The notes under the pieces: model-generated
What the model was told of the DNA's origin: nothing
Seen by the model: the letters and a program-made list of their open reading frames with translations, nothing else
Databases searched by the model: none
DNA from: an uncultured Nitrospirota bacterium
GTDB lineage: Bacteria > CG2-30-53-67
Direction: 5' to 3'
Assembly: GCA_947259355.1 (NCBI GenBank)
Contig: CAMYMF010000043.1
Location: forward strand, 1 to 51,661
DNA: 51,661 nucleotides
Shown: positions 1,449 to 46,133 of the stretch, in pieces
How positions within the stretch are numbered: the first letter of the stretch is position 1
How the letters are laid out: the number at the start of each line of letters is the position of its first letter
Program-made: the position numbers and the translations under genes

Positions 1449-3194
1449 TCATCCATCGGCCACCGCCAACAAGGGAAGATACCGAGGCTGCCATTGCATC
1501 TTTTCAATCAGTCTTTCCAAACGGTGTTCTTCGTTATTATGCTGGAAGGTGCTGAAAGCACACGGCCCGCTCACTTTTTCTCTGATGGCCGCCAGCCCGA
1601 CAGCCAGAGCCACTTTTTGACTCACCCCACGGATCGCTTCCACCGGCGGCAGCAGCACCCCGGCACGGAGGTCTTCCAGGGGGACTGCATCGGCGACGGC
1701 CTTCGCCGCGTCTGCAAAGAATGAGGGCAATACCTTCTTGGCACCGGAGGCAAGTACCCCCAGACCGACGCCCGGAAAGATGAACACATTGTTACACTGC
1801 CCTGTTTGCATCGATTTGCCGCCGTATTCAACAGGCGGGAAAGGACTCCCCGTGGCAATCAGCGCCCGACCTGCAGTCCGGTGAACAATCTCTTCGGGTG
1901 TTGCCTCACATCTGTCGGTCGGATTGCTGAGCGGCAGGATCACCGGCCGATCCGAATTGGCCAGCATGGCCTCCACCGCCTCTTTCGTAAAATGACCCGT
2001 CTGTCCGGAGGTTCCGATGAGTACGGTGACCCGGGCCTTCTCGATGACATTGATCAGCTTACCGTCCTGGGGTTCCCGCAACCATGGAAGGGTTTGAGGG
2101 TCGCGGGCAAATTTCTTCTGATAGTCTCTTTCAAAGTTAGTCAGCGTGACCAGCCCCAGGCGGTCCAGGGTAAAGATCCGGTCCCTGGCATCCCTTTCGG
2201 ACAGTCCCTGTGTCATCAGGCCGGCCTCAATCTGTTCGGCAATCCCGATACCGCCGGCTCCGGCACCGTAAATCAGAAAGACCTGGTTCTCCAGGGGTTC
2301 TTCTTTAATTCTCGTGGCCGCCATCACGGCGGAAAGCGCGACGGCCCCGGTGCCTTGGATATCGTCGTTAAACGATATCAGATCCTCCAGGTAGGCGTCT
2401 CTCACATCAAAGGCTGTCTGCTGCGAGAAATCTTCCCACTGGCAAAGTGCGTTCGGAAACACGGCCTTGAACGCGTCGGCAAAGCGTTTCACGAAGGACA
2501 TATACTCGTCCCCCATGAGCCTCCGGTGGCGCCACCCGAGATAATTGGGATCTTCCAGCAACGCCTCGTTGTCCGTACCCACATCCAGCGAGATGGGCAG
2601 ACAGTGCCAGGGTGCAATCCCGGCGCCCTGGGTGTAGAGCATCAGTTTGCCGAGACAGATGGCAATGCCGCCCGCGCCCTGATCCCCGATGCCGAGGATC
2701 CCCTGGTTGTCGGTCACGACGGCGACGCGGATATCCCTGTGTGCGAAGGTTCCCAGGATCTTTTCGGCATCGTCGATGTTTCCGGGAAAGAAGTGTATGC
2801 CGTGGGCCGTGCGAAACATGGAAGAGTATTGTTGGCAGGCAACGCCTACGGTCGGCGTGTAAATGATCTTCATGTACTCGGCGATGTTGCTCTGGATCAG
2901 CGCATGGGCCAACGTGACATTTCGATCAAAGAGGGAGCGAATGAAGATGAACTTCTCGACATCATCCTGTTTTCTCTCTACTTTTTCAATGCTGTTACGG
3001 GTCTGTCGATCCAAGGAGCGCACAGCCGGAGGCAACATGCCGTACAATCCAAGATCGTGGCGCTCCTCTTCGGTAAAGGCCGACGCTTTGTTGATGTAGC
3101 TGTTGCGCATGGCGTCGATGCCGCGCGCGGCCACCTTGATGGCGCGAGTATTGCCGTAATCGTCAAATTGAAGATCATAGATTCTTTCAGGCAT
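1449..3194 (-). CDS. maeA: NAD-dependent malic enzyme
   Basis: Large (eukaryote-like) class of NAD-malic enzyme, 581 residues, a normal length. It oxidatively decarboxylates L-malate to pyruvate and CO2 in the cytoplasm. The N-terminal malic domain holds YTPTVGVACQQYS and the metal/substrate segment DNQGILGIGDQGAGG at about 160-175. The segment NDDIQGTGAVALSAV at about 275-290 is the family metal-binding block, and GAGAGGIGIAEQI at about 310 is the Rossmann nucleotide loop. The ATG is preceded by a G-rich ribosome site. Downstream of a small hypothetical gene and dodecin on the same strand, and near fumarase, it completes a fumarate-malate-pyruvate route feeding the pyruvate:ferredoxin oxidoreductase encoded at 42.7-45.6 kb. 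Choice of NAD over NADP follows the family and is not proven. Confidence 0.93.
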   Translation of the reverse strand: MPERIYDLQFDDYGNTRAIKVAARGIDAMRNSYINKASAFTEEERHDLGLYGMLPPAVRSLDRQTRNSIEKVERKQDDVEKFIFIRSLFDRNVTLAHALIQSNIAEYMKIIYTPTVGVACQQYSSMFRTAHGIHFFPGNIDDAEKILGTFAHRDIRVAVVTDNQGILGIGDQGAGGIAICLGKLMLYTQGAGIAPWHCLPISLDVGTDNEALLEDPNYLGWRHRRLMGDEYMSFVKRFADAFKAVFPNALCQWEDFSQQTAFDVRDAYLEDLISFNDDIQGTGAVALSAVMAATRIKEEPLENQVFLIYGAGAGGIGIAEQIEAGLMTQGLSERDARDRIFTLDRLGLVTLTNFERDYQKKFARDPQTLPWLREPQDGKLINVIEKARVTVLIGTSGQTGHFTKEAVEAMLANSDRPVILPLSNPTDRCEATPEEIVHRTAGRALIATGSPFPPVEYGGKSMQTGQCNNVFIFPGVGLGVLASGAKKVLPSFFADAAKAVADAVPLEDLRAGVLLPPVEAIRGVSQKVALAVGLAAIREKVSGPCAFSTFQHNNEEHRLERLIEKMQWQPRYLPLLAVADG

Positions 3195-4386: not shown

Positions 4387-6003
4387 TCACATCAGAGCCT
4401 GGAAGAAGTCATTCCCCTTGTCGTCGATCAGGATGAAAGCAGGGAAGTCCTCCACCTCGATCTTCCACACTGCCTCCATCCCGAGTTCAGGATAATCGAT
4501 GCACTCTACCTTTTTAATGTTCTCTTCAGCCAGAAGGGCCGCCGGGCCGCCGATGGAGCCGAGGTAAAAGCCACCGTGTTTCTTGCAGGCCTCGGTCACC
4601 CGTCGAGAGCGGTTTCCTTTGGCAATCATGATCAGAGACCCGCCGTGGGCCTGCAGCAGGTCGACATATGCATCCATGCGACCCGCCGTCGTCGGACCGA
4701 AGGAACCGGAGGGCTTGCCCGGTGGGGTCTTGGCGGGCCCGGCATAATATATGGGGTGATTCTTTAAGTAATCGGGCAGCGGCTTGCCGGCATCGACAAG
4801 TTCCTTGAACCGGGCATGGGCCATGTCACGCCCGACCACGATGGTCCCCGTCAACAGCAGGGGGGTGGCGACGGGATGTCGGGTGAGCTCCGCGAGGATC
4901 TCCTTCATGGGACGATTCAAGTCGATTTTCACGCCCTGCGCATGTTTGCCGTGATACTCCTCCGGAATCAGACGGCCCGGGTCCCCGTCGAGGTCTTCGA
5001 TCCAAATGCCGTAGCGATTTATTTTGGCGAGGATATTCCGGTCGGCGGAACAGGAGACCCCCATGCCGACGGGGCAGGAGGCCCCGTGTCGCGGCAGGCG
5101 AATTACGCGAACATCATGGGCGAAGTATTTGCCGCCAAACTGAGCGCCGATGCCGCACTGCTGCGCGGCCTCGAGCAGCTTGTCCTCAAGGGCTACGTCG
5201 CGAAAAGCCCGGCCGTGATCGTTCCCGGATGTGGGAAGACAGTCCAGATATTTGGCGGACGCCAGTTTAACGGTCTTTAAACAAGCCTCGGCGCTCGTGC
5301 CGCCGATGACGAAAGCAAGGTGATAGGGGGGGCAGGCCGCTGTCCCCAGGGTCTTCATCTTTTCCACAAGGAACGGGAGCAACTTTTCCGGGTGGAGCAG
5401 AGCTTTGGTCTCCTGGAACAGGGAGGTCTTGTTGGCACTGCCCCCCCCCTTGGCGAGCAGCAAAAACCTGTATTCGTTGCCCTCGACGGCATAGAGATCG
5501 ATCTGGACGGGCAGGTTGGTTCCGCTATTCTTCTCCGTGTACATATCGAGCGCAACGGTCTGCGAATAGCGCAAGTTTTCCTCCTGGTAGGTTTTGTAAA
5601 CACCTTTGGAGAGCATCTCGGCATCATTGCATCCGGTCCAGATGTTCTGGCCCTTCTTGCCAATGATGGTGGCCGTGCCCGTGTCCTGACAGATGGGCAG
5701 TTCGAAACGGGCCGCCACTTCCGCATTTCGCAGGAAAGCCAGCGCGACCCCCCGGTCGTTGGCCGATGCCGCGGGGTCGCTCAGGGCATTCGCAACCTGT
5801 TCATTGTGCTCGGCACGGAGCAGGAAGGAAACGTCACGGAGGGCCTGGGCAGCGAGGAGGACCAGCGCTTCCCGGTCGATCTTGAGCACCTCCTGGCTGT
5901 CAAAATGGGCGATGCGCACATACCGCTGTGAGCCTTCGAGGAGCCGGTAAACGGTATTGTCTGTTTCCTGTGGAAAGGGCTCCTGATATCTAAACGCCAC
6001 CAT
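4387..6003 (-). CDS. fumA: Class I (iron-sulfur) fumarate hydratase
   Basis: Single-chain class I fumarase, 538 residues from the ATG at 6003 (GTGGGAG ribosome site; an upstream 27-codon extension has none). It interconverts fumarate and L-malate with an oxygen-sensitive [4Fe-4S] cluster. The N-terminal alpha-type domain holds [17 protein letters not shown] with the first cluster Cys at about 106. Further cluster Cys lie in [17 protein letters not shown] in the middle of the protein. The C-terminal beta-type domain carries [19 protein letters not shown] and [17 protein letters not shown], both diagnostic. The gene is monocistronic or leads the minus-strand block. A 40-bp element shared with the por operon lies about 200 bp upstream (6201-6240), suggesting specific regulation. 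Confidence 0.94.
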
Positions 6004-6176
6004 TGTCGTCTCCCACCCTACAAGGTAGTGCGCCGTGCTTATGTTTCGCCAGTGGGAATCGCTCGCACGGAAGGCACCCGTCAAGATGTGTCATTCATGG
6101 CGTATGCCCCGTCAGAGGCGCTCCCGCCTCTACACGCTTCGCTCGGATATTGCATGAAGTTGGGATTTTGTCGACT

Positions 6177-6244
6177 CTAATGGAAATAATGCACCTTCGG
6201 AAGTCGAATAATTCTGATTTTCGTGTAAGAAGATTTCTTACCAT
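6177..6244 (-). promoter_or_regulatory. Conserved 40-bp element and candidate promoter upstream of fumarase (copy A)
   Basis: Bases 6201-6240 match 46158-46197 at 37 of 40 positions; the first 19 bases (AAGTCGAATAATTCTGATT) are identical. The 3' part contains TAAGA-N5-TCTTA, extended here to a perfect 7-bp inverted repeat, GTAAGAA-N3-TTCTTAC. Read on the minus strand, a possible -10 box (CATTAG, 6177-6182) lies at exactly the same offset as TATTAT in copy B. The element would cover the -35 region and upstream, like an activator site. The rest of the 429-base gap between the response regulator and fumarase holds no supportable gene. Confidence 0.6.
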
Positions 6245-6432: not shown

Positions 6433-7074
6433 TCAAATTTCCACGAGATCATGCCGGATGGCGAATCGAGAAATATCCGCGTTATTACGGAGATTCAATT
6501 TCTTGAGAATACGAAGACGGTAGGTGTCCACAGTCTTGATGCTGATGTCGTAGGACTCTGCAATTTCTCGATTGGTCTGCCCCATGGCAAGACGCCGCAA
6601 CACCTGAATTTCCCGTTTGGACAGGCTGTCCAGAAGTGATCGCGTGCCTTTTTGAACTTCCGCCGCATGAACGGCCAACGCCTCCGCGGCCGCCGCACTT
6701 AGGTACCGACCACCCTGATAGACTTTCTTGATGGCGGCGACCAATTGTTCCGGCGCCGACTTTTTGGTCACGTATCCCTTGGCGCCAGCCTGGATCGCCC
6801 GGACGATATACTGGTCTTCCTCAAACATGGTGAGAATAATGATCGGCACGTCGCCGCAGGTCGCCACCACCTGCTCGATCACTTCCAGCCCATCCATTCC
6901 CGGCATGGAAATGTCTACCACGGCCACATCGGGTTTGGTCTCGCGGATCTTGCGCACTGCCTGACGGCCGTTTTCCGCCTCGGCGATCACGCTGATTTCC
7001 CGTGTCTCTTCCATGATTCGGCAGAGACCCGCGCGCACAAGGCGGTGGTCTTCGGCAATCAGTACTTTAATCAC
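6433..7074 (-). CDS. NarL/FixJ-family response regulator (DctR-like)
   Basis: 213 residues, normal for the family. The N-terminal receiver (residues 1-120) has the acidic pocket IAEDHR, the phospho-acceptor Asp in VAVVDISMPGMDG at about 55 and the Lys of GYVTKKSAPEQL near 105. The C-terminal LuxR-type helix-turn-helix (about 148-205) reads LSKREIQVLRRLAMG then TNREIAE and SIKTVDTYRLRILKKL. It is a cytoplasmic DNA-binding transcription factor, active as a phosphorylated dimer, and its gene follows its probable kinase by 124 nt. The pairing with a DctS-like sensor and the downstream fumarase and malic enzyme suggests control of C4-dicarboxylate metabolism. Sites of this family are usually 18-20 bp inverted repeats, which fits the element at 6201-6240; that assignment is inference. 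Confidence 0.92.
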   Translation of the reverse strand: MIKVLIAEDHRLVRAGLCRIMEETREISVIAEAENGRQAVRKIRETKPDVAVVDISMPGMDGLEVIEQVVATCGDVPIIILTMFEEDQYIVRAIQAGAKGYVTKKSAPEQLVAAIKKVYQGGRYLSAAAAEALAVHAAEVQKGTRSLLDSLSKREIQVLRRLAMGQTNREIAESYDISIKTVDTYRLRILKKLNLRNNADISRFAIRHDLVEI

Positions 7075-7198: not shown

Positions 7199-9667
7199 CT
7201 ATGCGCGCTCCTTTTGCAGCGGGAAGCGTACCTCGATCACAGCGCCTTCGTTGAGGACTGATTCAATCTTGACGGTGCCATCCAGGAGCTGTGCTCGTTC
7301 CCGTATGCCCGACAAACCCAGTCCTTCTGTCTCCCGCAGGCTATCGGTGTCAAATCCTCGTCCGTCATCCTTGACGCGCAGAATGATTTCGGTACCGTTT
7401 GACGTAAGCGAAACGTCGGCAAAGGTGGCCTCGGCGTGACGGGCAACATTGGTAAGTGCCTCCTGGGTGATGCGGTAGACCTCGGAAGCCGTCCCGTCCT
7501 GCAGGTCGGGTACATTGCTGTGTCTGAATCTGCACGGAATGGCCATGCGCTTTTCGAAATCGTGGACCAGCCATTCCAGCGCAGGAAGCAGCCCCAGGTC
7601 GTCGAGAACAACAGGACGCAGGCGCACCGCCATATTGCGGACCTCATCGATGGTCTTGTCAATGAGCTCACTCATGGCCGCCGATCGGCGGGCCATATCG
7701 TCACTGCGATCGGCCAGCCTCTTCTCGAGCCATGCGGCGTCCATTTTCAGCGCGGTGAGGGCCTGACCCAGTTCATCATGCAGTTCCCGAGCAATGGCAG
7801 TGCGTTCATTCTCCTGGCTGCTCAATAGCCTGTTGGACAACTGCTGCAATTTCTCCTGGGCCCTTTTCAACTCTGTAATATCTGTGGAGATGCCTCCCAG
7901 TCCAATGATCTGGCCCGCCTCGTCAAACATGGGGAATTTGACTGAAATATAAGTGTGGATGCCGTCCGCCTGGGGCACCTTTTCTTCAATCTGCAACGGT
8001 TCGCTTCGGGCCAGTACCTCTCTATCGTTCTTCTGAAACTGCTGCGCCGTGACCGGGTCGAAGACATCTTTGTCCGTCTTGCCCCGTATTTCGTCCAGCC
8101 CAATGTCGAAGAGTTTTTCGTATCGTGAATTGATGAGCAGATAACGGCCTATGGTGTCTTTCATATAGACCACCGCCGTTGTATGCCTGAGGATGCTCGA
8201 TATTTCACGAGTCCTTTCCCGGACCTGACGCTCCAGATTCCGGGAGTGGATGCGCAGCTCTTCGGTCGCTTCCTGGAGTTTCGCTTCTGCTTTTTTCAAC
8301 GCGGTGATGTCAACCAAGATGCAGAGGGAACGAGCGGTTTCCTGCCCGGCCTGCCGCTCTCGGACTGCGGAGAGCAAAACATCCCGAATTTCTCCCTCTT
8401 TTGTATAGAATTGATGGGCGATGTCTTTGCAAGAACCGGTTTCAAGTAATTTGGGAATGAGACACTCTTCTGAGGCCATCTGAAAATCGGGGGTCATGAA
8501 TTGCGTAATTTTGCGGCCGAGAACCTCCTCCCGGGAGTAGCCGAGGGCTGTGCACCAGTAGTCGCTGACCCGAACAATCCTGCAATTCGAATCGATGGAA
8601 TAGAGCATGGCAGGCGTTTGAAAGTAGAATCGTCTGAACCGTTGTTCACTCTCCAGGAGGGCCGCTTCAACCGTTTTGCGGCGTGTAATTTCAGAAAGGG
8701 CTCGCCAGTAGAGGTACACGACGATCGTGACGAGTGACAGCGAAAAGATGGTCATCAGGATGCCCGGGAGATGCTGGATGGGCGCCAGGATTGTTGCCCA
8801 TACGGAGGGCAGGGGGCGAAGGTAAACGATGCTCCATTCCGGAAAGGCTTCGATGGGTTGTTCATAAAACCCCATTTCCTGGTTGTCGGGACCGAGCACT
8901 CTGTGGTTCGCAGAGCTACGGGTGTACCCCAACCACTCCCAGGGGCCGTCGCCGAACTGCTGGGAGACGCCAAGGCGCTGCGTATCCCCGGGCGACAGGC
9001 GCCAGAGAGAGCGAAAGAGCCAATCCTTGCGGCTTGACGCAAAGATGATGCCGTGTGGATCCTTCAGCAGCAATGTCTCATCGCCCGTAATGAAGCGGGT
9101 GAATTCCTTCTCGCTCTCTGCGATGGAGGCTTTGATCACGGCCACGCCGACGGGCTGGCGATTCAGGGGATCCAGGACGGGATAGCTGTAATAGACACCC
9201 CGAATACCGCTGGCCGTTCCCAACGCCATGTAGATGGCGGACGTTCCTCGAATGGCCCGCTGAAAGTACGGCCGAAAGGCAAAGGAGAGCCCCACGAAGC
9301 TATCGGGCTCGCGACGATTGCTCGATGCGATCGTCATGCCCTTGTCATCCATCAGATAACAGACATTAGCGCCCAGCGTTGTCGCGAAGAGGTCAAGAAT
9401 TGCATTGGCATCCTTCGTGGTTTCGAGCGTTCTTTTTACGAAGACTCGTCGGATTTCGGACAAACCGGCCAACGTGCGTACCGGTTTGAGCTGCTCTCCC
9501 AGGAAGAAGCTGAAACGACTTGTCGTCTCAGCCACTTTGTTAACGGCTTCCTGATTGGCTTCATGGCTCAGGTCTGACTTGACATTGGAGTAAAAAAAAT
9601 ACCCGGCCAGCAGAGAAGAGACCAGCGCAATCGATGCGAGCGTGAAAAGGATCGGTTGTAGACGCAT
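7199..9667 (-). CDS. Membrane sensor histidine kinase with DctB/DctS-like sensor and two PAS domains
   Basis: 822 residues from the ATG at 9667; a GTG 13 codons upstream is possible but less likely. Order: membrane helix (about 5-25), a periplasmic double-Cache sensor (about 30-300), membrane helix (about 310-335), PAS (about 350-480), a short coiled coil, PAS (about 500-620), HisKA_3 dimerisation domain and HATPase. The sensor holds FRPYFQRAIRG, YMALGTASGIRGVYYSYPV and the later GIIFASSRKDWLFRSL, which match the dicarboxylate-binding sensors DctB/DctS. The phospho-acceptor His is in ENERTAIARELHDELGQAL, typical of HPK7 kinases that partner NarL-type regulators, as in the Rhodobacter DctSR system. 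The ATPase has VKDDGRGFD and GLGLSGIRERA. It likely senses a C4-dicarboxylate outside the cytoplasm. Confidence 0.92.
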   Translation of the reverse strand: MRLQPILFTLASIALVSSLLAGYFFYSNVKSDLSHEANQEAVNKVAETTSRFSFFLGEQLKPVRTLAGLSEIRRVFVKRTLETTKDANAILDLFATTLGANVCYLMDDKGMTIASSNRREPDSFVGLSFAFRPYFQRAIRGTSAIYMALGTASGIRGVYYSYPVLDPLNRQPVGVAVIKASIAESEKEFTRFITGDETLLLKDPHGIIFASSRKDWLFRSLWRLSPGDTQRLGVSQQFGDGPWEWLGYTRSSANHRVLGPDNQEMGFYEQPIEAFPEWSIVYLRPLPSVWATILAPIQHLPGILMTIFSLSLVTIVVYLYWRALSEITRRKTVEAALLESEQRFRRFYFQTPAMLYSIDSNCRIVRVSDYWCTALGYSREEVLGRKITQFMTPDFQMASEECLIPKLLETGSCKDIAHQFYTKEGEIRDVLLSAVRERQAGQETARSLCILVDITALKKAEAKLQEATEELRIHSRNLERQVRERTREISSILRHTTAVVYMKDTIGRYLLINSRYEKLFDIGLDEIRGKTDKDVFDPVTAQQFQKNDREVLARSEPLQIEEKVPQADGIHTYISVKFPMFDEAGQIIGLGGISTDITELKRAQEKLQQLSNRLLSSQENERTAIARELHDELGQALTALKMDAAWLEKRLADRSDDMARRSAAMSELIDKTIDEVRNMAVRLRPVVLDDLGLLPALEWLVHDFEKRMAIPCRFRHSNVPDLQDGTASEVYRITQEALTNVARHAEATFADVSLTSNGTEIILRVKDDGRGFDTDSLRETEGLGLSGIRERAQLLDGTVKIESVLNEGAVIEVRFPLQKERA

Positions 9668-10097
9668 GGCAGGCGAACTCCACTTTATGGCGGATAGCCC
9701 TCCCACGCCTGAGATGAAAGAAGCAGGTGCACCCCGTTCACAAGGACTCGTACCGTGTGGGGGTGTTGAATCCCTGGGGCAGGACTCACCGTTTGAGGAC
9801 TATTCGCCCGGGCATTGAAACGCTAGCAGTATCTTCCCTCGCTGTCAATACCAAGATCCGGGGGGCTATCGATTCTTTCTTGAGCATGGAGCCCAGGCGT
9901 CGGCCCTTCGGCCTGGCTCGGCTTCATGGGAGAAACGTTGCCCTCGGTCACGGGACCGGCGACGGAACGATGCGTCTCTTTTTGCTGTATGCCGGGAACC
10001 GCGGTGTGCTATATTCACCTCACAGCCGATCATGGATGGCGGCGAGCGGGGGCGCCGTGTTTGAGCAGCTGTGGAATCATAAGATACGAGGAGACTG
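9668..10097 (+). other. Divergent intergenic region with extended -10 candidate
   Basis: About 430 bases between the divergent kinase and C_GCAxxG genes. No frame looks like a gene. On the plus strand TG-C-TATATT at 10007-10015 fits an extended -10 promoter without a good -35, about 80 nt before the start codon at 10098. A kinase promoter on the minus strand was not recognised. Confidence 0.4.
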
Positions 10098-14815: not shown

Positions 14816-17800
14816 TCAAAGAATCCGCCGGAGGGGCTTGCGGCGTAAAAGCAACGGCATCAGGAGGATCAGCAGGGGCCATATGTCTGCCTCTTGGGCG
14901 GTCGTGCCGGACTTGATACGGCATCCGCCGCCACCGCCGCCTCCAGACACCGGCGCAGACGCTTGGTCATTCTGCGCGAGGCCGCTCACGCTGTCGGCGT
15001 CCCGGTAATCGGGCAGGCCGTCGTTGTCGTTGTCGGCCATCAACTCGACGCTGTCCGGGGATCCGTCCCCGTCGGAGTCGGCGTCGAGGGCATCGATGAT
15101 GCCGTCCGCATCGGAGTCGTAAGGATTCATTGGGTCGGGTCCCACTTCCGTGAAATCTGGCAGGCCGTCGTCGTCGGAATCGGGGTATGCCGGATCGGTT
15201 CCGAGAGCCCCTTCCTCTTCGTTGGTGAGGCCGTCGCCGTCAGGATCGGCCAGGCGGTGACTGTTAAAGGCATCACAGGGGTCTCCGGTGCCGTCCGCGT
15301 CGGCATCGGTCTGGATCTCATTGGGGAATTCGGGGCAGTTGTCCACATCGCCGCAGAACCCGTCACCGTCGATATCATTGTCGGGGTCATTTGGACAGGG
15401 GTCGTTACAATCGGCTATTCCGTCGCCGTCGCCGTCGCTCTCGGATACGTTGCATCCGCAATCCCCTCCGTCGGTCTTGGCGGGATCACTGGCGCAGAGG
15501 TCCATGCAGTCGGCCGTGCCGTCTTCGTCGGTGTCCGTATCGGCGCGACCGCAACCGCAGATCCCGCCAACGGTTTTGGACGGGTCCGTTGGGCAGGCAT
15601 CGTGGCAGTCGAGCGCACCGTCGCCGTCGGCGTCGGTGTCGGCCGTGCCGCACCCACAAACCCCCGGACTGATCTTGCCGAAGTCCGCGGGGCAGCTGTC
15701 GCGGCAGTCGGCGGTGCCGTCGCGATCCGTATCGGTGTCCGCCGCGCCGCACCCACAAATCCCCGGACTGATCTTGGCGGGGTCCAAGGGGCACGCGTCC
15801 ACACAGTCCGCTGTGCCGTCCCCGTCGTTGTCGGTGTCGGGCAGGCTGCAGCCGCAGAGGCCGGCGGTGGTCTTCTCCGGATCGTCAGGGCATTCATCAC
15901 GGCAGTCGGCCCAGCCGTCACGATCGGTATCGGTGTCCAGCGTGCCGCAACCACACTGGCCAGGGACAAGTTTGGTCGGATCGTTGGGGCACCCATCCAG
16001 ACAATTTGCCGTACCGTCGGCATCGGCGTCGTCGTCGGGACTACCGCAACCGCAGATGCCGGCGGTCTGTTTGGCTGGATCGTTGGGGCATTCATCCTGG
16101 CAGTCGAGGGTCCCGTCGGCGTCGCTGTCGCTGTCGGCCGTGCCGCAACCGCAGACGCCGGACTTGCTCTTGTGGGGATCGGCCGGGCAGCCGTCAATGC
16201 AATCGGGGAAGAAATCGCCATCCCTGTCGGTTTCGGGTACACCGCAGCCGCAGAAGAATGGGAGCCACTTGTCCGGATCGTCGGGACAGAAGTCGAAGCA
16301 GTCGGGATGCCTGTCGCCGTCGCGGTCCGTGTCGGCCACGCCGCAGCCGCAGGTGCCGGGGGCGGTCTTGTTCGCGTCCAGTGGGCAATCATCCAGACAG
16401 TCGGGCCAGCCGTCGTTGTCGGTGTCGATCTCCGGGATACCGCAGCCACAAACACCGCGAGCAATCTTGTCTGGATCCAGCGGACACTCGTCCAGACAGT
16501 CGGGGCGGCCATCTCCGTCGGCGTCGCTGTCGGAGATCCCACAGCCGCACAGACCTGGCGCTGTTTTGGCAGAATCCTGGGCGCACAAATCGAGGCAGTC
16601 GGGTGTCCCGTCGGCGTCGCTGTCGCTGTCGGGTACGCCGCAGCCGCAGACGCCTGCTACAATCTTGCCGGGGTCCTGGGGGCACTCGTCCAGGCAGTTC
16701 GGGGTCCCGTCGGCGTCGCTGTCCGTTTCGGCGACGCCGCAGCCGCAGGTGCCGGGGTCATTCTTTAGGGGATCCAGGGGACATTCATCGTGACAGTCGG
16801 CTGTGCCGTCCTGGTCGAGATCCCTGTCTGAGACGCCGCAGCCGCAGGTGCCTGCTACGGTCTTGCCGGGGTCCTGGGGGCACTCGTCCAGGCAGTTGGG
16901 GGTCCCATCGCCGTCGCTGTCCGTTTCGGCTATGCCGCAGCCGCAGGTGCCGGGGGTGATCTTTCCGGCATCGGTGGGACAGGAATCATTGCAGTCCAGG
17001 GTGCCGTCGGCATCGGCATCCGTATCCGGTAAACCGCAGCCGCAGATGCCCGGAACGATCTTACCCGAGTCCGACGGACACAGATCGAGGCAGTCCGAGG
17101 TACCATCGGCGTCGGAGTCTGTGTCAGGCATTCCGCAGCCGCAGGCTCCGGGGTCATTCTTCAGGGGATCCAGGGGACATTCATCGTGACAGTCGGCTGT
17201 GCCGTCCTGGTCGAGATCCCTGTCTGAGACGCCGCAGCCGCCATCGGGGTCGACATCCTGCAGACCGCAGCCGCACAGACCGGGCGCCGCCTTGGCGGGA
17301 TCGTCGGGGCAGCCGTCGAGACAGTCGAGCACGCCGTCACCATCGCTGTCGGTGTCAGCCACGCCGCAGCCGCAGACGCCGACGCTGATTTTTGCAGGAT
17401 CGTCGGGGCAACCGTCGAGACAGTCGAGCACGCCGTCACCGTCGGAATCGATGTCAGGCATGTTGCAGCCGCAAAGACCGGGGGTGATTTTGTCGTTGTC
17501 CCCGGGGCACAGGTCGTTACAATCGGCAGTGCCGTCACCGTCGCTGTCGGCGTCGACCACGCCGCAGCCGCAGACGCCGGCGAGGATTTTGTCGGCGTCC
17601 TGAGGACACAGATCGTGGCAGTCGGGCGTGCCGTCGGCATCGGCGTCGGTGTCGGGGATGCCGCAGCCGCAGATGCCGGCGACGATTTTGTCGGCGTCCT
17701 GGGGACACAGGTCGTGGCAGTCGGGCGTGCCGTCGGCATCGGCGTCGGTGTCGGGGATGCCGCAGCCGCACAGACCGGTATCCGTCTTCAGAGGATCGCT

Positions 17801-19270
17801 GGGGCAGCCGTCGGAACAATCATCCGGACCGTCTCCGTCCGAATCGACGGGGCAGGGGTCACAGAGGTCTCCCACCCCATCCTTGTCCGAGTCCAACTGA
17901 TCGGGGTTTTCTGTTTCCGGGCAGTTGTCGTGGCATTCGGGAATCCCGTCTCCGTCCAGTCGGGAATCCTCGTCGTCGGGCGTTCCATTGCAGTCGTCAT
18001 CAACACCGTCGCAGGTCGCATCGCCGGCTGCAGGGTGGATGTTCGGGTTGGTGTCGTCGCACTCCTCGAGAACCGTGTAGCCGTCTCGGTCCTTGTCCGG
18101 AGAAAGGAGAAAGGCTTCCTGATTGCCGTCAGGGTTGATGCCGTAGCCCGCTATCTGGCCTCTGTTGTTGATAGCCCGAACCTGCAACAGGATCCATCCA
18201 TCGCCACTTTCGTCAACCAGGCTTTCCAGGGGGACCATCCCGGTGGATGGCTCCCACAGAAAGGTGTCACCGTTGTAGTTGGCCGCGCGCAACCCGCTCT
18301 TGCCGATGACCTGCCCCAAGTTATTGATCCCATAGGCCTCACTGAATGCGGCGCCCGGCAGTCGCCCCAAAGGTTGCATACCCGTGTCGGGACTCCAGAG
18401 GAACGCTTCATTTTCGGTGCCCGAGTTGCTCCATCCTGCAATCTGTCCCAGGTCGTTGACGGCCCTGGCGACACTGCTGAAGGAGCCGCCGGGAAGATCT
18501 CCAAGGGCCTGCATGACTTCGGTCGTGGGACGCCAGAGAAAGCCCTCCTGTGTACCTCGGCTCGACGCGCTCGTGCCGACAACTTCCGATGCGGCATTGA
18601 TGCCGTAAGGTTCACTCCTGAAGACTCCCCCCATGAGTTCGCCCAGGCCACGCATGGCTCCGGTGGCCGGGTTCCACAGAAAGGCCTGCCGCTCATCGAC
18701 CCCGCCATAACCGTAGTCGGAGTAGCCAAAGCCAACGATCGTGCCGGTATCGTTGATGGCACGGGCTTCGCTGTAAAACCGACCGCCCGGCAGATCCCCG
18801 AGCGCGACCATCGTCCGGGAGATGGGCTCCCATCGAAAGGCCTGTATGCCCGAGGAACCGTGGCTCCATCCCACGACGATGCCCGCATTATTAATGGCCG
18901 AGGCCGTACTGCTGAAGTTGCCACCGTATAGGTCGCCGAGCCCGGTCATGGTTCGGGTCACCGGATCCCAAAGGAACGCCTCCAGTCCCCGTTGTTGGAT
19001 CCCGAAATCGGAAGCACTGGTGCCCACGATTTGGCCTGCATCATTGATGCCGCAGGCTTGACTCGAGAAGTCGTTCCCCGGGAGATCGCCCAACGGGGTG
19101 AGCGTGTAGGTCTGTGCCGGCGCGGAGAGGCTCGGCGTCGGTGAAAAGAGTGAGAGCAGCAGGAGGGCAACCACCGTCGTCATCGTCGACGGCCGCGACC
19201 AACGGAGGTACAGGGGAGCCCCGTTTCCTCCGATGTCGTGGCTGCTTTTCTCGTTCTTTATTGTGCGCAT
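14816..19270 (-). CDS. Giant surface protein: HAF repeats, Cys/Asp-rich 33-residue repeats, CTERM-like sorting tail
   Basis: About 1,484 residues from the ATG at 19270. Other starts at 19348, 19336 and 19183 are possible and none has a good ribosome site. A signal peptide runs to about SLSAPA. The first part (about 55-390) has seven or eight extracellular HAF-family repeats of the form INDAGQIVGTS / EAFLWDP / LGDLPGG. The second (about 400-500) has calcium-type Asp-rich thrombospondin-3-like repeats (DSDKDGVGDLCD). The third has about 24 tandem 33-residue units, CGCG..DTD.D.DG..DC.D.CP.DP.K...G, with four Cys each. The protein ends with Asp-rich repeats, a GGGGGGGC run, a hydrophobic helix and a basic tail (LLRRKPLRR), the layout of CTERM-type sorting signals. 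Likely a secreted, Ca2+-stabilised, disulfide-rich surface or adhesion protein. Function unknown. Confidence 0.9.
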   Translation of the reverse strand: MRTIKNEKSSHDIGGNGAPLYLRWSRPSTMTTVVALLLLSLFSPTPSLSAPAQTYTLTPLGDLPGNDFSSQACGINDAGQIVGTSASDFGIQQRGLEAFLWDPVTRTMTGLGDLYGGNFSSTASAINNAGIVVGWSHGSSGIQAFRWEPISRTMVALGDLPGGRFYSEARAINDTGTIVGFGYSDYGYGGVDERQAFLWNPATGAMRGLGELMGGVFRSEPYGINAASEVVGTSASSRGTQEGFLWRPTTEVMQALGDLPGGSFSSVARAVNDLGQIAGWSNSGTENEAFLWSPDTGMQPLGRLPGAAFSEAYGINNLGQVIGKSGLRAANYNGDTFLWEPSTGMVPLESLVDESGDGWILLQVRAINNRGQIAGYGINPDGNQEAFLLSPDKDRDGYTVLEECDDTNPNIHPAAGDATCDGVDDDCNGTPDDEDSRLDGDGIPECHDNCPETENPDQLDSDKDGVGDLCDPCPVDSDGDGPDDCSDGCPSDPLKTDTGLCGCGIPDTDADADGTPDCHDLCPQDADKIVAGICGCGIPDTDADADGTPDCHDLCPQDADKILAGVCGCGVVDADSDGDGTADCNDLCPGDNDKITPGLCGCNMPDIDSDGDGVLDCLDGCPDDPAKISVGVCGCGVADTDSDGDGVLDCLDGCPDDPAKAAPGLCGCGLQDVDPDGGCGVSDRDLDQDGTADCHDECPLDPLKNDPGACGCGMPDTDSDADGTSDCLDLCPSDSGKIVPGICGCGLPDTDADADGTLDCNDSCPTDAGKITPGTCGCGIAETDSDGDGTPNCLDECPQDPGKTVAGTCGCGVSDRDLDQDGTADCHDECPLDPLKNDPGTCGCGVAETDSDADGTPNCLDECPQDPGKIVAGVCGCGVPDSDSDADGTPDCLDLCAQDSAKTAPGLCGCGISDSDADGDGRPDCLDECPLDPDKIARGVCGCGIPEIDTDNDGWPDCLDDCPLDANKTAPGTCGCGVADTDRDGDRHPDCFDFCPDDPDKWLPFFCGCGVPETDRDGDFFPDCIDGCPADPHKSKSGVCGCGTADSDSDADGTLDCQDECPNDPAKQTAGICGCGSPDDDADADGTANCLDGCPNDPTKLVPGQCGCGTLDTDTDRDGWADCRDECPDDPEKTTAGLCGCSLPDTDNDGDGTADCVDACPLDPAKISPGICGCGAADTDTDRDGTADCRDSCPADFGKISPGVCGCGTADTDADGDGALDCHDACPTDPSKTVGGICGCGRADTDTDEDGTADCMDLCASDPAKTDGGDCGCNVSESDGDGDGIADCNDPCPNDPDNDIDGDGFCGDVDNCPEFPNEIQTDADADGTGDPCDAFNSHRLADPDGDGLTNEEEGALGTDPAYPDSDDDGLPDFTEVGPDPMNPYDSDADGIIDALDADSDGDGSPDSVELMADNDNDGLPDYRDADSVSGLAQNDQASAPVSGGGGGGGCRIKSGTTAQEADIWPLLILLMPLLLRRKPLRRIL
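15372..17770 (-). repeat. Coding minisatellite of 99-bp units
   Basis: About 24 tandem units with a 99-bp (33-codon) period inside the giant surface gene. One unit is truncated near 17,240: a DVDPDGG segment joins directly to CGVSDRD. The segments at about 16,752-16,850 and 17,149-17,240 are almost identical in DNA, while most other units have diverged. Both point to unequal recombination. The period is a multiple of three, so long stop-free frames also appear on the plus strand. Confidence 0.9.
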
Positions 19271-19858
19271 CGCTTGAATATAAGAGTAAGATGGAGACAA
19301 AAGGCCCCAGTAGCGTGAAACAGTCCTGAGATACATGGCTGGCCCCATGGCTTGCAATTTGAATGCCTTGATTGTCTGATTTCGATGCCCGCCCGACGGA
19401 TGGGGTTGTTTCGGTCATAAATCGTTGTGGTTTCATCCGCTTGCAGGCCTGTGCCGGAAGAACAATATTTTATTCCTGGAAAACAAAAAATGTGTAATTG
19501 ACCTTTTTCCTCGTTTCTTACGCAATTAATTACCAAATAATGGAAATATATTTCATATTTTATGAAAATTTGTTCTATAATTCGATAAAGCGTCTTTCAA
19601 GGAAATCTCTCAGACACGGTCGAGCGGCCAGGGGCTGACGGGGACGGCTTCAATCATCGGTGGACGGTGTCGGTGTAGAGTGGGCGCCGCCAATGGGAGA
19701 TCTTCGGGACGATGCAGCCCGGCGGTAAATGCGTTGGGGTCGCCGCGTGGGCCGTGCGTCGCGCCGACATAACCCTTGATTTTGAAAGGGCCATTTGCTA
19801 AGGTGCCTCTGGTTTTGAGCGCTGCAGGGAGCCCACGCAATCAACCTGGAATCGATGC
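19271..19858. other. AT-rich divergent intergenic region
   Basis: About 590 bases between the giant surface gene and the PHP gene. The part at 19,440-19,600 is strikingly AT-rich compared with its surroundings and probably holds promoters for one or both directions, but no pair of boxes is clear. The 19,620-19,850 part is GC-rich with no supportable gene; its minus-strand frames show no family resemblance. Confidence 0.5.
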
Positions 19859-31328: not shown

Positions 31329-31406
<78 letters not shown>

Positions 31407-31488
31407 TAACTACGGGAAACAGGAAATAGAAATTGGAAAATGGCGATTACTATTTCCAATTTTCTAGTTCCCGTTTTCCATACTTGTG
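31407..31488 (+). repeat. Hairpin-forming tRNA spacer 1
   Basis: Purine-rich left half (GGAAATAGAAATTGGAAAAT) and pyrimidine-rich right half (CTATTTCCAATTTTCTA, then CCCGTTTTCC) can form a long imperfect hairpin between tRNA-Pro and tRNA-Arg. Confidence 0.65.
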
Positions 31489-31565
<77 letters not shown>

Positions 31566-31669
31566 GTAAGATCGGAAAATAGAAAGTAGAAAATAGAAAA
31601 GAGGGAACGACCTCGACCTGTCTTAGCTCTTACTATTTCCTATTTTCTATTTTCCAATTTCTGAATTGT
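31566..31669 (+). repeat. Hairpin-forming tRNA spacer 2
   Basis: Left half with repeated GAAAATAGAAA blocks, right half CTATTTCCTATTTTCTATTT. The inner text TGTCTTAGCTCTTACTATTT also occurs in spacer 4 near 32034, so the spacers are related to each other. Confidence 0.7.
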
Positions 31670-31670
31670 G

Positions 31671-31747
31671 GTGGGTGTAGCTCAGGTGGTTAGAGCGCAA
31701 GGTTGTGGCCCTTGAGGTCGGGGGTTCAAGTCCCCTCACTCACCCCA
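31671..31747 (+). tRNA. tRNA-His (anticodon GTG)
   Basis: Acceptor GTGGGTG/CACTCAC, anticodon GTG in loop TTGTGGC. The extra 5' G (31670) that pairs with discriminator C73, an identity element of tRNA-His, is encoded, and so is CCA. Confidence 0.96.
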
Positions 31748-31878
31748 TTCATTTCGAGATCAGGTTGATGGGAAGCCGGGAATTGGGGAAGCGGTATATG
31801 GGACGAGCCGGGGGACAGAGATTTCATAAGCAGGTGCACGGAGCCATTTTCCAGTTCCCCTTTTCCGGTTTCCATCTC

Positions 31879-31959
<81 letters not shown>

Positions 31960-32085
31960 GACATTTCAGGAAATAGAAAATAGAAATTAGGAAATGGGGA
32001 ATTACAAATTAGGAAATAGAAAATAACCAGCTTGTCTTAGCTCTTACTATTTCCCATTTTCCATTTACCATTTCCCATCCCCAGT
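31960..32085 (+). repeat. Hairpin-forming tRNA spacer 4
   Basis: Purine-rich blocks such as GGAAATAGAAAATAG on the left face TTTCCCATTTTCCATTTACC on the right. It shares the TGTCTTAGCTCTTACTATTT text with spacer 2. Confidence 0.65.
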
Positions 32086-32116
32086 TCGCAGGTTCGAGTG
32101 CTGCCGGGCGGTGCCA
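32086..32116 (+). pseudogene. 3' fragment of a tRNA-Arg gene
   Basis: Near-copy of the T-arm and acceptor 3' end of the tRNA-Arg(TCG) gene (compare 31929-31960), with one substitution (CGAGTG for CGAGTC) and one inserted base before CCA. No 5' half is present. It may be left by recombination between spacers or by an element that used the tRNA 3' end. Confidence 0.75.
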
Positions 32117-32162
32117 GTTAATTGGGGGATTGATACCCCATTTGAAGGTCGAAACAGAAGAA

Positions 32163-32290
32163 TTGATTCCGTCGCAAACAGTTTAGACGCAAGGCGCGAG
32201 ATTCTCGAGGAATGAGGCGTACTCACTGTACGCCGCAGTGACGAGAGGATCGATAAAACGCAGCAGATGGGCTGTTTGCGGCGGAATCAA
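32163..32290. repeat. 128-bp palindromic element next to tRNA-Lys
   Basis: Arms of 19 bp (32163-32181 and 32272-32290) pair with one mismatch. Inner palindromes include GGCGTAC/GTACGCC at about 32216-32234. The right arm ends 2 bp before tRNA-Lys. The layout resembles REP-like palindromes common in deltaproteobacterial genomes. Confidence 0.7.
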
Positions 32291-32292
32291 GT

Positions 32293-32368
<76 letters not shown>

Positions 32369-39184: not shown

Positions 39185-39931
39185 TTAGAACATATGCTGT
39201 CCGCCGTTTACTGAGAGGTTGGAGCCAGTGATGTAGCCGGCCGTATCCTCAGCCAGGAAGGTGACTACCCGGGCCACCTCACTCGGTTCCCCCAGTCTCC
39301 CCACCGGAATGTCCGAGACAATGGCCTCCCGGACGTGGTCAGGCACGGCCATGACCATTTTAGTGGCGATGTAGCCCGGCGAAACCGTATTGACGGTAAC
39401 ACCATGGCGGGCGACCTCCTGTGCCAATGCCTTGGTGAAACCGTGCATGCCTGCTTTGGCCGCAGAGTAGTTGGTCTGTCCCAGCTGTCCTTTCTGGGCG
39501 TTGACGGAGCTGATATTGATGATCCGGCCAAAGCCCTTTTCAATCATCGGATTGACGGCCAATCGCGTCATGTTGAAGAGGCTGTTCAGATTCGCGGTGA
39601 TGACGTCGTTCCACTTGTCCAGATCCATCTTCTTGAACATGGAATCTCGCGTGACCCCGGCGTTGTTCACCAGGATGTCAACGGGACCCGCGATCTCCAC
39701 CACTTCCTCGAAGGATTTCTTGCACGACTCGAAGTCCCGCACATTGCCATAGCTGATTCCGATGTCGTAGCCCTCCTCCTTCTGCTTCCGCTGCCACTCT
39801 TGGGCCCTTTCGTGCTTTCCGCCGCTGTAGTAACCGGCCACGACTTTGGCACCCCCTTGATACAGGTGCCTGCAAATCGCCGTGCCGATTCCCCCCGTGC
39901 CGCCGGTAACAAACGCCACCCTTCCTTTCAT
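39185..39931 (-). CDS. phaB: Acetoacetyl-CoA reductase (PhaB-type SDR)
   Basis: 248 residues, classical short-chain dehydrogenase: cofactor loop VTGGTGGIGTAICRHLY, NNAG, the catalytic Ser in IINISSVNAQKGQLGQTNYS and the Tyr/Lys of YSAAKAG. Family-typical PhaB text includes GVTVNTVSPGYIATKMV and the end YITGSNLSVNGGQHMF. It would reduce acetoacetyl-CoA to (R)-3-hydroxybutyryl-CoA with NADPH, for polyhydroxybutyrate or related metabolism. No phaA or phaC lies in the window, so it could also act as a general 3-oxoacyl reductase. It is 139 nt beyond the cytochrome gene, on the same strand. AGGTGCG-like ribosome site. Confidence 0.9.
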   Translation of the reverse strand: MKGRVAFVTGGTGGIGTAICRHLYQGGAKVVAGYYSGGKHERAQEWQRKQKEEGYDIGISYGNVRDFESCKKSFEEVVEIAGPVDILVNNAGVTRDSMFKKMDLDKWNDVITANLNSLFNMTRLAVNPMIEKGFGRIINISSVNAQKGQLGQTNYSAAKAGMHGFTKALAQEVARHGVTVNTVSPGYIATKMVMAVPDHVREAIVSDIPVGRLGEPSEVARVVTFLAEDTAGYITGSNLSVNGGQHMF

Positions 39932-40070
39932 AGCGCACCTCCGTTGAGTTGTAGAATGCTGGATTGATCTCTAAAATACCGCCCCCCTTATATTCTGTCC
40001 ATTGGATTTGCATTTTCCGTCCCGGAATGGAACGCCGGGCCTTGCTAGGGGAGGCTCACTTTCTGCCAAA

Positions 40071-41063
40071 TTACCCCAGAAATCCCCCCGGATCTCGGTA
40101 CTCATGACAGCCGGCGCAGATCTCCTGAGCCTCTTCCTTGCCGACCTTCCACTCATGAGGTGGGTGACAGGTCAGGCATTCCATGCCGACCATGTTGATA
40201 TGGATGTCATGTTTTCCGATCTTCTGGATCTTGCGGTGACAGCTGAAACAGCTAGCCTGGTCGGGGTTGATCTTTATCCCGTGGGGCTGGTGACAGGTGT
40301 GGCATTCGAACTGCATGGGTGCATCCGCAGTGAACTTGATGGTGGAGGACTTCTCCACCGTGTCAGGATCAGGTGTAAACCCTCCGCCATCTCCTCCAGC
40401 GAAGGCCAGCGAGATCTTCACCCGCGTTTTTACGTCCCCGTGACAGATAAGACATTTCTCACGGGTGGGCCTGATATTAGGGGCCTCGTCACTGTGGCAG
40501 GCCAGGCAGGCCAGCCCCTCCATGCCGATGCCGTGAACCTCTTTCGCCGTATGGCAGCGAAGACAGAAGCGCTCGTCCGGTATGAATTCGTGGAGACCTT
40601 CCTTGGACGCTGTCTGTATGTAGGCGTGACATTTGGAACATTCGATCTGCTCAATAAAGACATGTTTGGCATGGGTCGTCGATTTGGCGATGTTCGCGGC
40701 GGTCTGAAAATGCTCGTCCCGTTCCCAATGGCATTTGAAGCACATCTTCCAGGGCACGACAATTTTGCCGTGTCGGGGCTCGACGGCTTCCGGGTTTTGC
40801 AGAATCGTCATGATGAGCATCCGGTTTTGCTCACGGGGCGTCGCGTAATGACATTCGTGGCAGTTGACCGTGTTGTGGACGCTTTGCTCCCAGGTATCGT
40901 AGGCCATCTGCATCAGGTGACAACTCACACAGAACGTCGGATCATTCTCTGTGAAATCATGGATTTGGTAGGCGACGGTGGCACCGCCGACGAGGATCAC
41001 CAAGACAAGCGCCGCAATAATCAGGCGCCCCTTGGCCGAGATTGTTTGTTTAAAAATTTTCAT
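40071..41063 (-). CDS. NapC/NirT-type multiheme cytochrome c (11 CXXCH)
   Basis: 330 residues from the ATG at 41063; an upstream extension to 41255 would overlap the previous gene and lacks a good site. One N-terminal membrane anchor (about 13-33, LIIAALVLVILVGGATVAY) precedes the haem part. I count 11 CXXCH sites: CVSCH, CHECH, CFKCH, CSKCH, CLRCH, CLACH, CLICH, CHTCH, CFSCH, CLTCH and CAGCH. The first four follow the NapC/NirT tetrahaem pattern that takes electrons from menaquinol; the rest form an appended haem chain. It is a periplasm-facing electron carrier, 119 nt after the FAD/4Fe-4S gene on the same strand. The terminal partner is unknown. Confidence 0.92.
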   Translation of the reverse strand: MKIFKQTISAKGRLIIAALVLVILVGGATVAYQIHDFTENDPTFCVSCHLMQMAYDTWEQSVHNTVNCHECHYATPREQNRMLIMTILQNPEAVEPRHGKIVVPWKMCFKCHWERDEHFQTAANIAKSTTHAKHVFIEQIECSKCHAYIQTASKEGLHEFIPDERFCLRCHTAKEVHGIGMEGLACLACHSDEAPNIRPTREKCLICHGDVKTRVKISLAFAGGDGGGFTPDPDTVEKSSTIKFTADAPMQFECHTCHQPHGIKINPDQASCFSCHRKIQKIGKHDIHINMVGMECLTCHPPHEWKVGKEEAQEICAGCHEYRDPGGFLG

Positions 41064-41182
41064 GGAAGCCCCCGGATGTTGCGCCCAGAAGAGGAGAGAC
41101 TCGTCCCCCGGCAGTTCGTTTACAGGTCCTGTTCCTATAACCTCGTGGGTGTTTGGTTTTGAACCGAGTTCTGTAGAAATCC

Positions 41183-42741
41183 CTAGATTTCTTCGGGTAT
41201 CATCATGATCGCGCCGCAGGGACACTCCGACGGACAGAGTCCACAACCTTTGCAATAGTCATACTTGAATTCGAAACGATTGCCTGGACCCAGTTTCCTG
41301 ATCGCATTGTCGGGACATACCCCGTAGCAGTTATCACACTCAAAACAATTCCCGCACGACAGGCAACGACGCGCCTCAAAGGTAGCATTCTCCTGATCGA
41401 TGTCCCCAATGATTTCGGCGAAGCCGGACTGGCGTCGCATCACGCTCAGCATCGGTCGAACCGTTCGCGGTGCGTCGGAGTAATACCAGGTATTGAGCAT
41501 GTCGAAAGTAACCACCTCCTGTTTGTCTGCCGGCGCGTAGGTGGCACCTCGCAGATGGGGATCATGTCTCCACCGGCAAAGACGCCCGGAGCGCCGGTCT
41601 GCATGTCGGCGCCCACCTGCACCGTGCCTTCCACGACCGCGATACCGGAAACCCCATCCATCGAGACCGTGTCGACGTTTTGGCCCAGGGCCTGCACCAC
41701 GACGTCTGCCTCTATACTTTCGAACTGGCCAGTGGGTTGCGGCCAACGTCCTTCACCGGGCACCATCTTCTCCAGAATGACCTCGTTGCCCCGGACCTCC
41801 CGGATGGCCCGCAAGCAGATCAGCGTGGCGCCCTCCTCCCGGGCTTCGTTCACTTCGAAGATGTGCGCTGGCATATGTTCTTGCGCCTCAATCGCGACGA
41901 CACTGACGTCTCTTGCGCCCAGGCGGATGGCCGTCCGTGCGACATCCATGGCGGTGTTCCCGCCCCCGTACACCACGACCCGCCCGCGCAGGCCCGTCGG
42001 CTCCTCCAGTTCCATCTTACGCAAAACACTCACGGCATCGAGCATGACCACTTTTCCCTCGACGGGGATTTCCACGCGCTTCGGTAGTTGAGCCCCCAGC
42101 GCTAAGAAGGCAGCACTGAAATTTCCCTCGTTTCCAGCGGCCAGTATATCGTCAACGGGGGAGTTGAGTTGAATGTCGACGCCCATTTCTTGAATACGGA
42201 GGATCTCGGCATTGAGTTTTTCTCGAGGCAAACGGTAACGGGGAATGCCGTACCGTAACATGCCACCGGCCTGCGGCCAGGCATCATATATGGTCACATG
42301 GTGGCCCAAACGCCGCAGATGATAGGCCGCCGCCAATCCACCCGGACCTGCACCGACAATCATCACGCGCTTGCCGGTCTCTTTGCCCGGATTCATTCGC
42401 CATTCGTGCTTGATGGCCTGATCTCCCAGGAACCGCTCAACGGCGTTGATTCCTACGGCCTCGTCCAACTGCCCCCGGTTACAGGCACTCTCGCAAGGGT
42501 GATAGCAGACGCGGCCCATGACTGCCGGAAAAGGATTGTCATCCATGATCTGGCGCCAGGCTTCCTCGTAGCGGCCCTCCTCTGCGAGGTAAAGCCACCG
42601 CTGGATGTTCTCTCCCGCAGGACAGGCGTGATTGCAGGGAGGCAGGCGGTCGACATAGAGCGGGCGCTGGGTGCGCCAGGATCCGGTTTTGTTAAGGAGA
42701 CTGCTTCCAACATCAAGCGTTATGGCAAACGGGGCCTTCAT
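41183..42741 (-). pseudogene. FAD/NAD(P) oxidoreductase with C-terminal 4Fe-4S ferredoxin domain (frame broken)
   Basis: Reads as a GltD-like iron-sulfur flavoprotein fused to a ferredoxin domain, the electron partner of the adjacent por subunits. The first frame starts at 42741 (AAGGAGGA site, 4-nt overlap with porB). It carries an N-terminal Cys cluster (CNHACPAG, CYHPCESACNRG), an FAD loop (VMIVGAGPGGLAAAYHLRRL) and an NAD loop (VVVYGGGNTAMDVARTA), up to GVFAGGDMIP at about 41560. There the frame and a conserved stretch of about 25 residues are lost. A second frame resumes with DMLNTWYYSDAPRTV and ends with CLSCGNCFECDNCYGVCPDN and CKGCGLCPSECPCGAI. This implies a deletion of roughly 70-80 nt with frameshift, or an assembly error. 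Confidence 0.82.
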
Positions 42742-43736
42742 GACTGTCCTCCTTCCGAGCCGGCCAATCGGAACTTACGGATGTTTGCGTCGGCGATGGC
42801 CTGGATCTTTGCCAGCTGCTCCGGTTTCTTGAACACATGGGCGAAGCGCCGCTGGAGCTTGAGACACTCTGCCACGTCCGTACGGCGCCGAATCTTTGTC
42901 ACGCCGACGATTTCGCCATACTCCGCCTCGAACAGCGGATAGAGACCGGATTCCACAGTGAGGCGGGCTACCTTCATCGTGTCCTGGGGCTTTGAGCCCC
43001 ACCCCAGGGGACAGGGTACGAAGATCTGTATGTAGCGGGCCCCGCGAACAGCCATGGCTTTCTGAACCTTGGCCTCCAGGTCATGAAGATCGTGCACGCT
43101 GGCCGTGGCAACATAGGGGATATTGTGGGCCATGGCGATCAGCGGCACATTTTTGCCTTGATTGAAATCCGCCCCGGGATTCTCTCCCACCGGCATGGTG
43201 GTCGCCGTGCGCGCAGCCCCTGGGGTGGCACTGGAGCGCTGCACGCCCGTGTTCATGTAAGCCTGGTTGTCATAGCATATGTAAAGCACGTCGTCGTTGC
43301 GTTCGAACATGCCCGACAAGCAGCCAAAACCGATGTCCGTGGTACCGCCGTCGCCGCCCTGGGCAATCACCCGCACCTCGTCACGGCCCTTGACGCGCAT
43401 TGCCGCCGCGATCCCTGTGGCCACCGCTGCGGCATTGCCAAACAGCGAGTGCATCCACGGAATGCGCCACGCCGACTCGGGGTAGGGTGTGGTGAATACT
43501 TCCAGACAACCGGTGGCGTTGGCCGCGATGAGTTGATTGTTGGCCGCCCGCATGGCTGCGTCGATGGCATAGCGGGCGCCGAGCGCCTCTCCGCAACCCT
43601 GGCAGGCCCGGTGGCCCGAGTCCAGGGAATTGGAGCGGTCCGGCGTTGCCTGTACGGTGCGCATCTTTTCGTCCAGCAGTCGGTTGCCAACTGTCAGGGT
43701 CCCCGTCTGATAGAATTTTACATGCTGATTGGGCAT
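42738..43736 (-). CDS. porB: Pyruvate:ferredoxin oxidoreductase, beta subunit
   Basis: 332 residues from the ATG at 43736 (GAGGGGGGGAG site). Thiamine-diphosphate subunit: GHRACQGCGEALGARYAID with cluster-type Cys, NATGCLEVFTTPYPESAW, and the TPP motif GDGGTTDIGFGCLSGMFERN followed by YDNQAYMNTGVQRSS. The NATGC and TTPYP text favours a pyruvate-type enzyme over the 2-oxoglutarate type. It catalyses reversible pyruvate + CoA + 2 oxidised ferredoxin to acetyl-CoA + CO2 + reduced ferredoxin. It lies in the order porG-porA-porB, 13 nt after porA, and overlaps the next gene by 4 nt. Confidence 0.93.
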   Translation of the reverse strand: MPNQHVKFYQTGTLTVGNRLLDEKMRTVQATPDRSNSLDSGHRACQGCGEALGARYAIDAAMRAANNQLIAANATGCLEVFTTPYPESAWRIPWMHSLFGNAAAVATGIAAAMRVKGRDEVRVIAQGGDGGTTDIGFGCLSGMFERNDDVLYICYDNQAYMNTGVQRSSATPGAARTATTMPVGENPGADFNQGKNVPLIAMAHNIPYVATASVHDLHDLEAKVQKAMAVRGARYIQIFVPCPLGWGSKPQDTMKVARLTVESGLYPLFEAEYGEIVGVTKIRRRTDVAECLKLQRRFAHVFKKPEQLAKIQAIADANIRKFRLAGSEGGQS

Positions 43737-43749
43737 CTCGCTCCCCCCC

Positions 43750-45006: not shown

Positions 45007-45020
45007 CTGCGCATCCTCCT

Positions 45021-45581: not shown

Positions 45582-46133
45582 CGCTGAATACCTCCATATA
45601 GACGCCGACAGGGCCGCGGTGCGGATCACCAATGAGCCACTCGGCCAAACCGGTATTGGCGAAAAGCCTCATCGCAGTCGCGCCCGGCGCAAGACAACAC
45701 ACCGTTTGAATCTCTTTCTATTTCTATCCACCCGCCAGCGAGCGGCGAAGTCACCGCCATTCAAAGCCGGAAGGACGCGCATCGGCGCAAACACATCAGA
45801 CGACAGGATCGGTTTTTCCAGCAGGGTGGGGAAGCTCCTTGTTGCTGCCATTCTAGCGCGTAAGTCGAATCTAGTGGCACAAAAACCGGCACCTAATGAC
45901 AGCAAGAAGCGGTCAAGTTTTCAAATTCGGCTGCAAAGGCGCTCAAAGTCTCGCAAAGTTGAGAAGCCTTTTAAACAGCTACGGTACGGGTAGGCTTTCC
46001 GCTCCGGCCGTTCTTCAAACGCTTCTATGCTCCGCTGCCTGGGCGCCCGTAGTTTACCCCTCAGCCCAATGTGATGCGGAGATGACATAAAGCTTGTTGT
46101 TAGACTCAGCATGGATTGACGATTGTAGCGAAT

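Follow-up and report, generated by a model that had tools for sequence, protein, structure and literature searches.

The DNA stretch analyzed here (the window, C43:1-51661, 51,661 nucleotides) belongs to a genome of 3.1 Mb in 94 contigs that is about 90% complete. On the minus strand, the window encodes a class I fumarase (4387-6003, with a checked ATG start at 6003) and, further downstream after a gap of about 0.5 kb, a malic enzyme (1449-3194) that is perhaps co-expressed with it. A response regulator (6433-7074, minus strand) and a histidine kinase (7199-9706, minus strand) are located on the other side of an intergenic region that holds an element of 40 to 41 bp (6201-6241, minus strand). 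A second copy of this element (46158-46197, minus strand) is located upstream of the por operon (39185-45632, minus strand), which encodes the gamma, alpha, and beta subunits of a 2-oxoacid:ferredoxin oxidoreductase, a GltD-like FeS flavoprotein, a multihaem cytochrome c, and an SDR reductase. A preliminary description of this DNA had reported that positions 6201-6240 and 46158-46197, both noncoding, are identical at 37 of 40 positions. Alignment within the window gave the same count with both segments on the same strand, the identity stops abruptly at both edges, and no pair with three or fewer mismatches was found in 100 dinucleotide shuffles of the window. Gene calls also bore out that both copies are intergenic and have the same orientation to the minus-strand genes behind them, fumarase in one case and the por operon in the other.

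We looked for scattered copies or a mobile repeat, the outcome named in advance as counting against a regulatory role, and BLAST and pattern searches of the whole genome returned exactly three copies, all in promoter position and in one orientation. The third copy (C23:2900-2940) has the same orientation to its genes as the window copies and sits 3' of a pyruvate:ferredoxin oxidoreductase gene. The operon behind it begins with a Peripla_BP_6 solute-binding protein, a TAXI-type TRAP solute-binding protein, and a fused TRAP permease, continues with a putative UspA-like protein and a malic enzyme, and then encodes the cytochrome b and flavoprotein of a succinate dehydrogenase/fumarate reductase (sdhC-sdhA). 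Its malic enzyme is 73% identical to the one behind fumarase. A copy of the element therefore precedes each of the two malic enzyme genes found in the genome. Weaker core matches on contigs C36 and C1 lacked the palindrome described below and were set aside, as was another (C23:76403), in which the TAAGA/TCTTAC stretch is incomplete and spaced differently. Across eight genomes of the phylum, the pattern search returned the three copies above and one in a sister species (G001); in the other genera among these genomes we found neither a copy of the element nor close relatives of the regulator. An exact 18-mer core had 15 matches across GTDB r220, while the whole element was found only in L063, which is G001 ('uncultured Nitrospirae bacterium' CG2-30-53-67). 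The remaining matches contain the core alone, are AT-rich, and look like chance.

We found that a -10 box of the form TANANT is located exactly 21 bases downstream of the element, with no gaps, at every copy including that of the sister species (p about 3e-4, shuffle test). The boxes are TAGAGT upstream of fumarase (6174-6179, minus strand), TATATT upstream of the por operon (46131-46136, minus strand), TATAGT at the third copy, and TACAGT in the sister species. The preliminary description placed a box at a common offset but named CATTAG and TATTAT, while the conserved box is 3 nt further downstream: read at the earlier offset, only 3 of 6 bases of the third copy agree with TATAAT, and after the correction the agreement of the three promoters is 4, 5, and 5 of 6. 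Of the 40 element positions, 36 are identical in all three promoters, compared with 3 of the 21 spacer positions and 4 of the 6 positions of the -10 box. The hexamers 17 nt upstream of the -10 boxes are poor (TTCCGA, TTTCCA at por, and TTTTCG), which fits with activator-dependent promoters, and a simple promoter scanner on its own picked TTTCCA-N17-TATATT at por. Our data indicate that the element is most likely the part of a sigma-70-type promoter that binds an activator, spanning about -73 to -34 from the predicted transcription start. The 5' leaders predicted from these starts are about 165 nt for fumarase and about 540 nt for por. Folding of the fumarase leader was no better than that of shuffles, and no convincing short gene was found in the por leader (45600-46124, minus strand). 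The fumarase leader contains a perfect 7-bp hairpin (AGAGGCG-GGAG-CGCCTCT, 6114-6131, minus strand), and the corresponding place in the sister species reads GAGAC-GGCGCA-GTCTC.

In the sister species, the only copy occupies the orthologous position upstream of fumarase, and the order kinase, regulator, element, and fumarase is kept. Conservation of the element was compared between these two species: relative to the fumarase promoter of the window, 38 of 40 positions of the element, all 21 of the spacer, and 5 of 6 of the -10 box are retained, whereas the surrounding intergenic sequence has mostly diverged. At the protein level, the regulators are 93% identical, the kinases 75%, and the fumarases 85%, and the best match of the regulator in other genera is 44%. 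In the sister species, fumarase is followed by a PAS-containing NhaD-type transporter and then by sdhC-sdhA, so that the one copy of this species precedes functions that are spread over separate copies in the genome studied here. This NhaD-type antiporter (L080:3166-5313), located between fumarase and sdhC, is an unusual transporter-sensor fusion. The sister genome was also searched for the por gamma subunit, the solute-binding protein of the third operon, and the malic enzymes; none has a close relative there, and the promoters of these genes therefore have no counterpart for comparison.

The regulator adjoining the first copy consists of a receiver and a LuxR/GerE helix-turn-helix domain and is closest to UvrY/SirA/GacA. 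It scored 192 bits against NCBIfam NF007018 (UvrY/SirA/GacA), below the 280-bit equivalog cut-off, and is the top match to this model within its own genome, as is its counterpart within the sister genome. Its identity is 42% to Escherichia coli UvrY and 27% to NarL, and its recognition helix, KTVDTYRLRILKKLN, is similar to that of UvrY, KTVNSYRYRMFSKLN. The kinase contains a dCache sensor of the DctB-like type, two PAS domains, and a HisKA_3 transmitter, which stands beside a LuxR-type regulator and not in the DctB arrangement of a HisKA transmitter paired with NtrC-type DctD. The sensor matched the DctB structures 3by9 (E 2.6e-25), 2zbb (4.5e-19), and 3e4o (8.6e-19), indicating homology to the periplasmic double-PDC domain of DctB, and the match to 3by9, of the Vibrio DctB type, covers the membrane-distal part. 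At the positions aligned to the ligand contacts of Sinorhizobium meliloti DctB, which we take to be Arg152, Thr171, Ser173, and Lys197, the kinase has the same four residue types. In DctB itself, the membrane-distal PDC is the part that senses C4-dicarboxylates (PMC8534201).

The TAAGA-N5-TCTTA inverted repeat pointed out in the preliminary description is real, and its fuller form is the palindrome GTAAGAA-N3-TTCTTAC with perfect 7-bp arms (6225-6241), centered at about -66 from the predicted start. The exact TAAGA-N5-TCTTA sequence occurs in the 3.1 Mb genome only inside the three copies of the element. The UvrY site of E. coli csrB is TGTGAGAGATCTCTTACA, and the consensus of the 18-bp UvrY box is TGTAAG-N6-CTTACA (PMC4682653). 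We found that the palindrome matches the csrB site at 14 to 15 of 18 bases with one gap, corresponding to one extra spacer base (none of 2000 shuffles equalled any copy of the element), a comparison picked once the palindrome had been seen, while the family placement of the regulator came from a separate analysis. The half-sites are thus like those of the UvrY box and the spacer is N7, not N6. About 24 invariant bases adjoin the palindrome within the element and are as well conserved as the palindrome itself.

The earlier proposal that the adjoining regulator binds the element is backed by the DctB-like sensor of its kinase, the UvrY-like family of the regulator, and the UvrY-like palindrome, and we consider this regulator the probable protein acting on the element. 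A dicarboxylate/TCA regulon had also been proposed; the third copy, heading the TRAP transporter, malic enzyme, and sdhC-sdhA genes, supports it, but por belongs only loosely to the TCA cycle. The best reading is a dicarboxylate/TCA regulon that is specific to this lineage and governed by a two-component system. We hypothesize that the DctB-like dCache domain senses extracellular C4-dicarboxylates and that the kinase then phosphorylates the UvrY-like regulator, which would bind GTAAGAA-N3-TTCTTAC near -66. The invariant bases reaching the poor -35 region would help the regulator to recruit RNA polymerase. Activation would switch on together fumarase (and perhaps the malic enzyme behind it), the por operon, and the operon of solute-binding proteins, TRAP transporter, malic enzyme, and sdhC-sdhA. 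The transcription starts, the ligand, the binding, and activation over repression are predictions within this scheme, and we consider it likely that the scheme, from two-component system through palindrome to joint activation of three operons, is correct as a whole.

Several alternatives bear on this explanation. The element may be a composite operator, in which the regulator occupies the palindrome and a second factor occupies the invariant ACGAAAATCAGAATTATTCGACTT reaching -35, with both signals needed. The invariant block far exceeds the length of one NarL-type dimer site, but no known site was recognized in the ACGAAAATCAGAATTATTCGACTT part, and this part could instead be a degenerate second site for the same dimer (8 of its 14 positions agree, which is not significant, p = 0.21). 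A composite operator can be accommodated as a refinement of the explanation above, and we regard it as possible without expecting it. Somewhat more doubtful is the more specific proposition that, in an uncultured lineage, a UvrY/GacA-like regulator with a DctB-type sensor directly controls central-carbon operons by way of a rigid composite operator of 40 bp, in which a second factor occupies one half. It is unlikely, though still to be taken seriously, that the element is a genuine shared operator bound by a different regulator, with the adjacent system controlling something else. This could be an unrelated factor or a NarL/LuxR-type protein such as the one encoded at C27:3524-4153, whose recognition helix, SIKTISTYRTRLLEKL, is similar and which has a counterpart in the sister species; the invariant bases outside the palindrome also leave room for another protein. 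However, in both genomes it is the adjacent regulator that best matches UvrY/GacA and whose gene adjoins the element, and the C4-dicarboxylate-type sensor of its kinase fits the target genes.

The high identity of the copies is unusual for three unlinked operators, and it could suggest that they are left over from mobile or repetitive DNA (MITE or REP-like) that inserted near genes by chance. The -10 boxes in register 21 bases from all copies argue for a promoter element and not a mobile repeat, as do the low copy number, the single orientation, the related functions of the genes, the retention of element and promoter in the sister species, and the absence of the element from the viral contigs and plasmids scanned. 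We therefore rejected this explanation as highly improbable. The least probable explanation, that the element acts within the transcript as a riboswitch or leader motif, as the long predicted leaders might suggest, was rejected since an Rfam search of the element gave no match and the element, being upstream of the in-register -10 boxes, would be outside the RNA.

The proposed system resembles BarA-UvrY/GacS-GacA in its NarL/LuxR-type regulator, similar recognition helix, and near-identical palindromic half-sites, but the spacer is 6 there and 7 here. The UvrY box is located at about -180 at the csrB and csrC small RNA genes, while the predicted site here is at about -66 of metabolic operons, and BarA is a hybrid kinase while the kinase here is not of the BarA type (dCache, PAS, HisKA_3). 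With DctB-DctD of rhizobia and Vibrio it shares the homologous extracytoplasmic sensor domain; DctD is an NtrC-type sigma-54 activator, whereas a LuxR/NarL-type regulator and a sigma-70-like promoter are found here. Dicarboxylate two-component regulons are known as a kind, including DctBD, DcuSR, and DctSR. DctS-DctR of Rhodobacter capsulatus is a C4-dicarboxylate two-component system whose LuxR/FixJ-type regulator serves a TRAP transporter. By analogy, the system here would likewise join C4-dicarboxylate sensing, a LuxR-type regulator, and a TRAP transporter target, although its predicted targets add fumarase, malic enzyme, SDH, and por and its transporter is of the TAXI type. MctS-MctR, which governs rhizobial carboxylate uptake, ranks second among the NCBIfam matches of the regulator and first among those of the kinase, but both matches are far below the curated cut-offs, and that of the kinase covers the transmitter only, its sensor being DctB-like. 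In the open-access literature we found no description of the operator, the pairing of sensor and regulator, or the predicted set of targets. A full, testable circuit of signal, sensor, regulator, operator, and three target operons is predicted from sequence alone in a poorly known uncultured lineage. This suggests that UvrY/GacA-type regulators, reported mainly as direct activators of regulatory RNAs, can directly switch C4-dicarboxylate metabolism.

Elsewhere in the window, a c-di-GMP-I riboswitch aptamer (49203-49283, plus strand; 43.3 bits, above the gathering score) is located upstream of a 554-aa open reading frame starting at 49316, and five tRNA genes are clustered at 31329-32365 (plus strand). 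The gene at 14816-19357 (minus strand) encodes a protein of 1513 aa that carries thrombospondin type 3 repeats, and some of its DNA is repeated exactly within the gene, such as 17613-17671 and 17712-17770.
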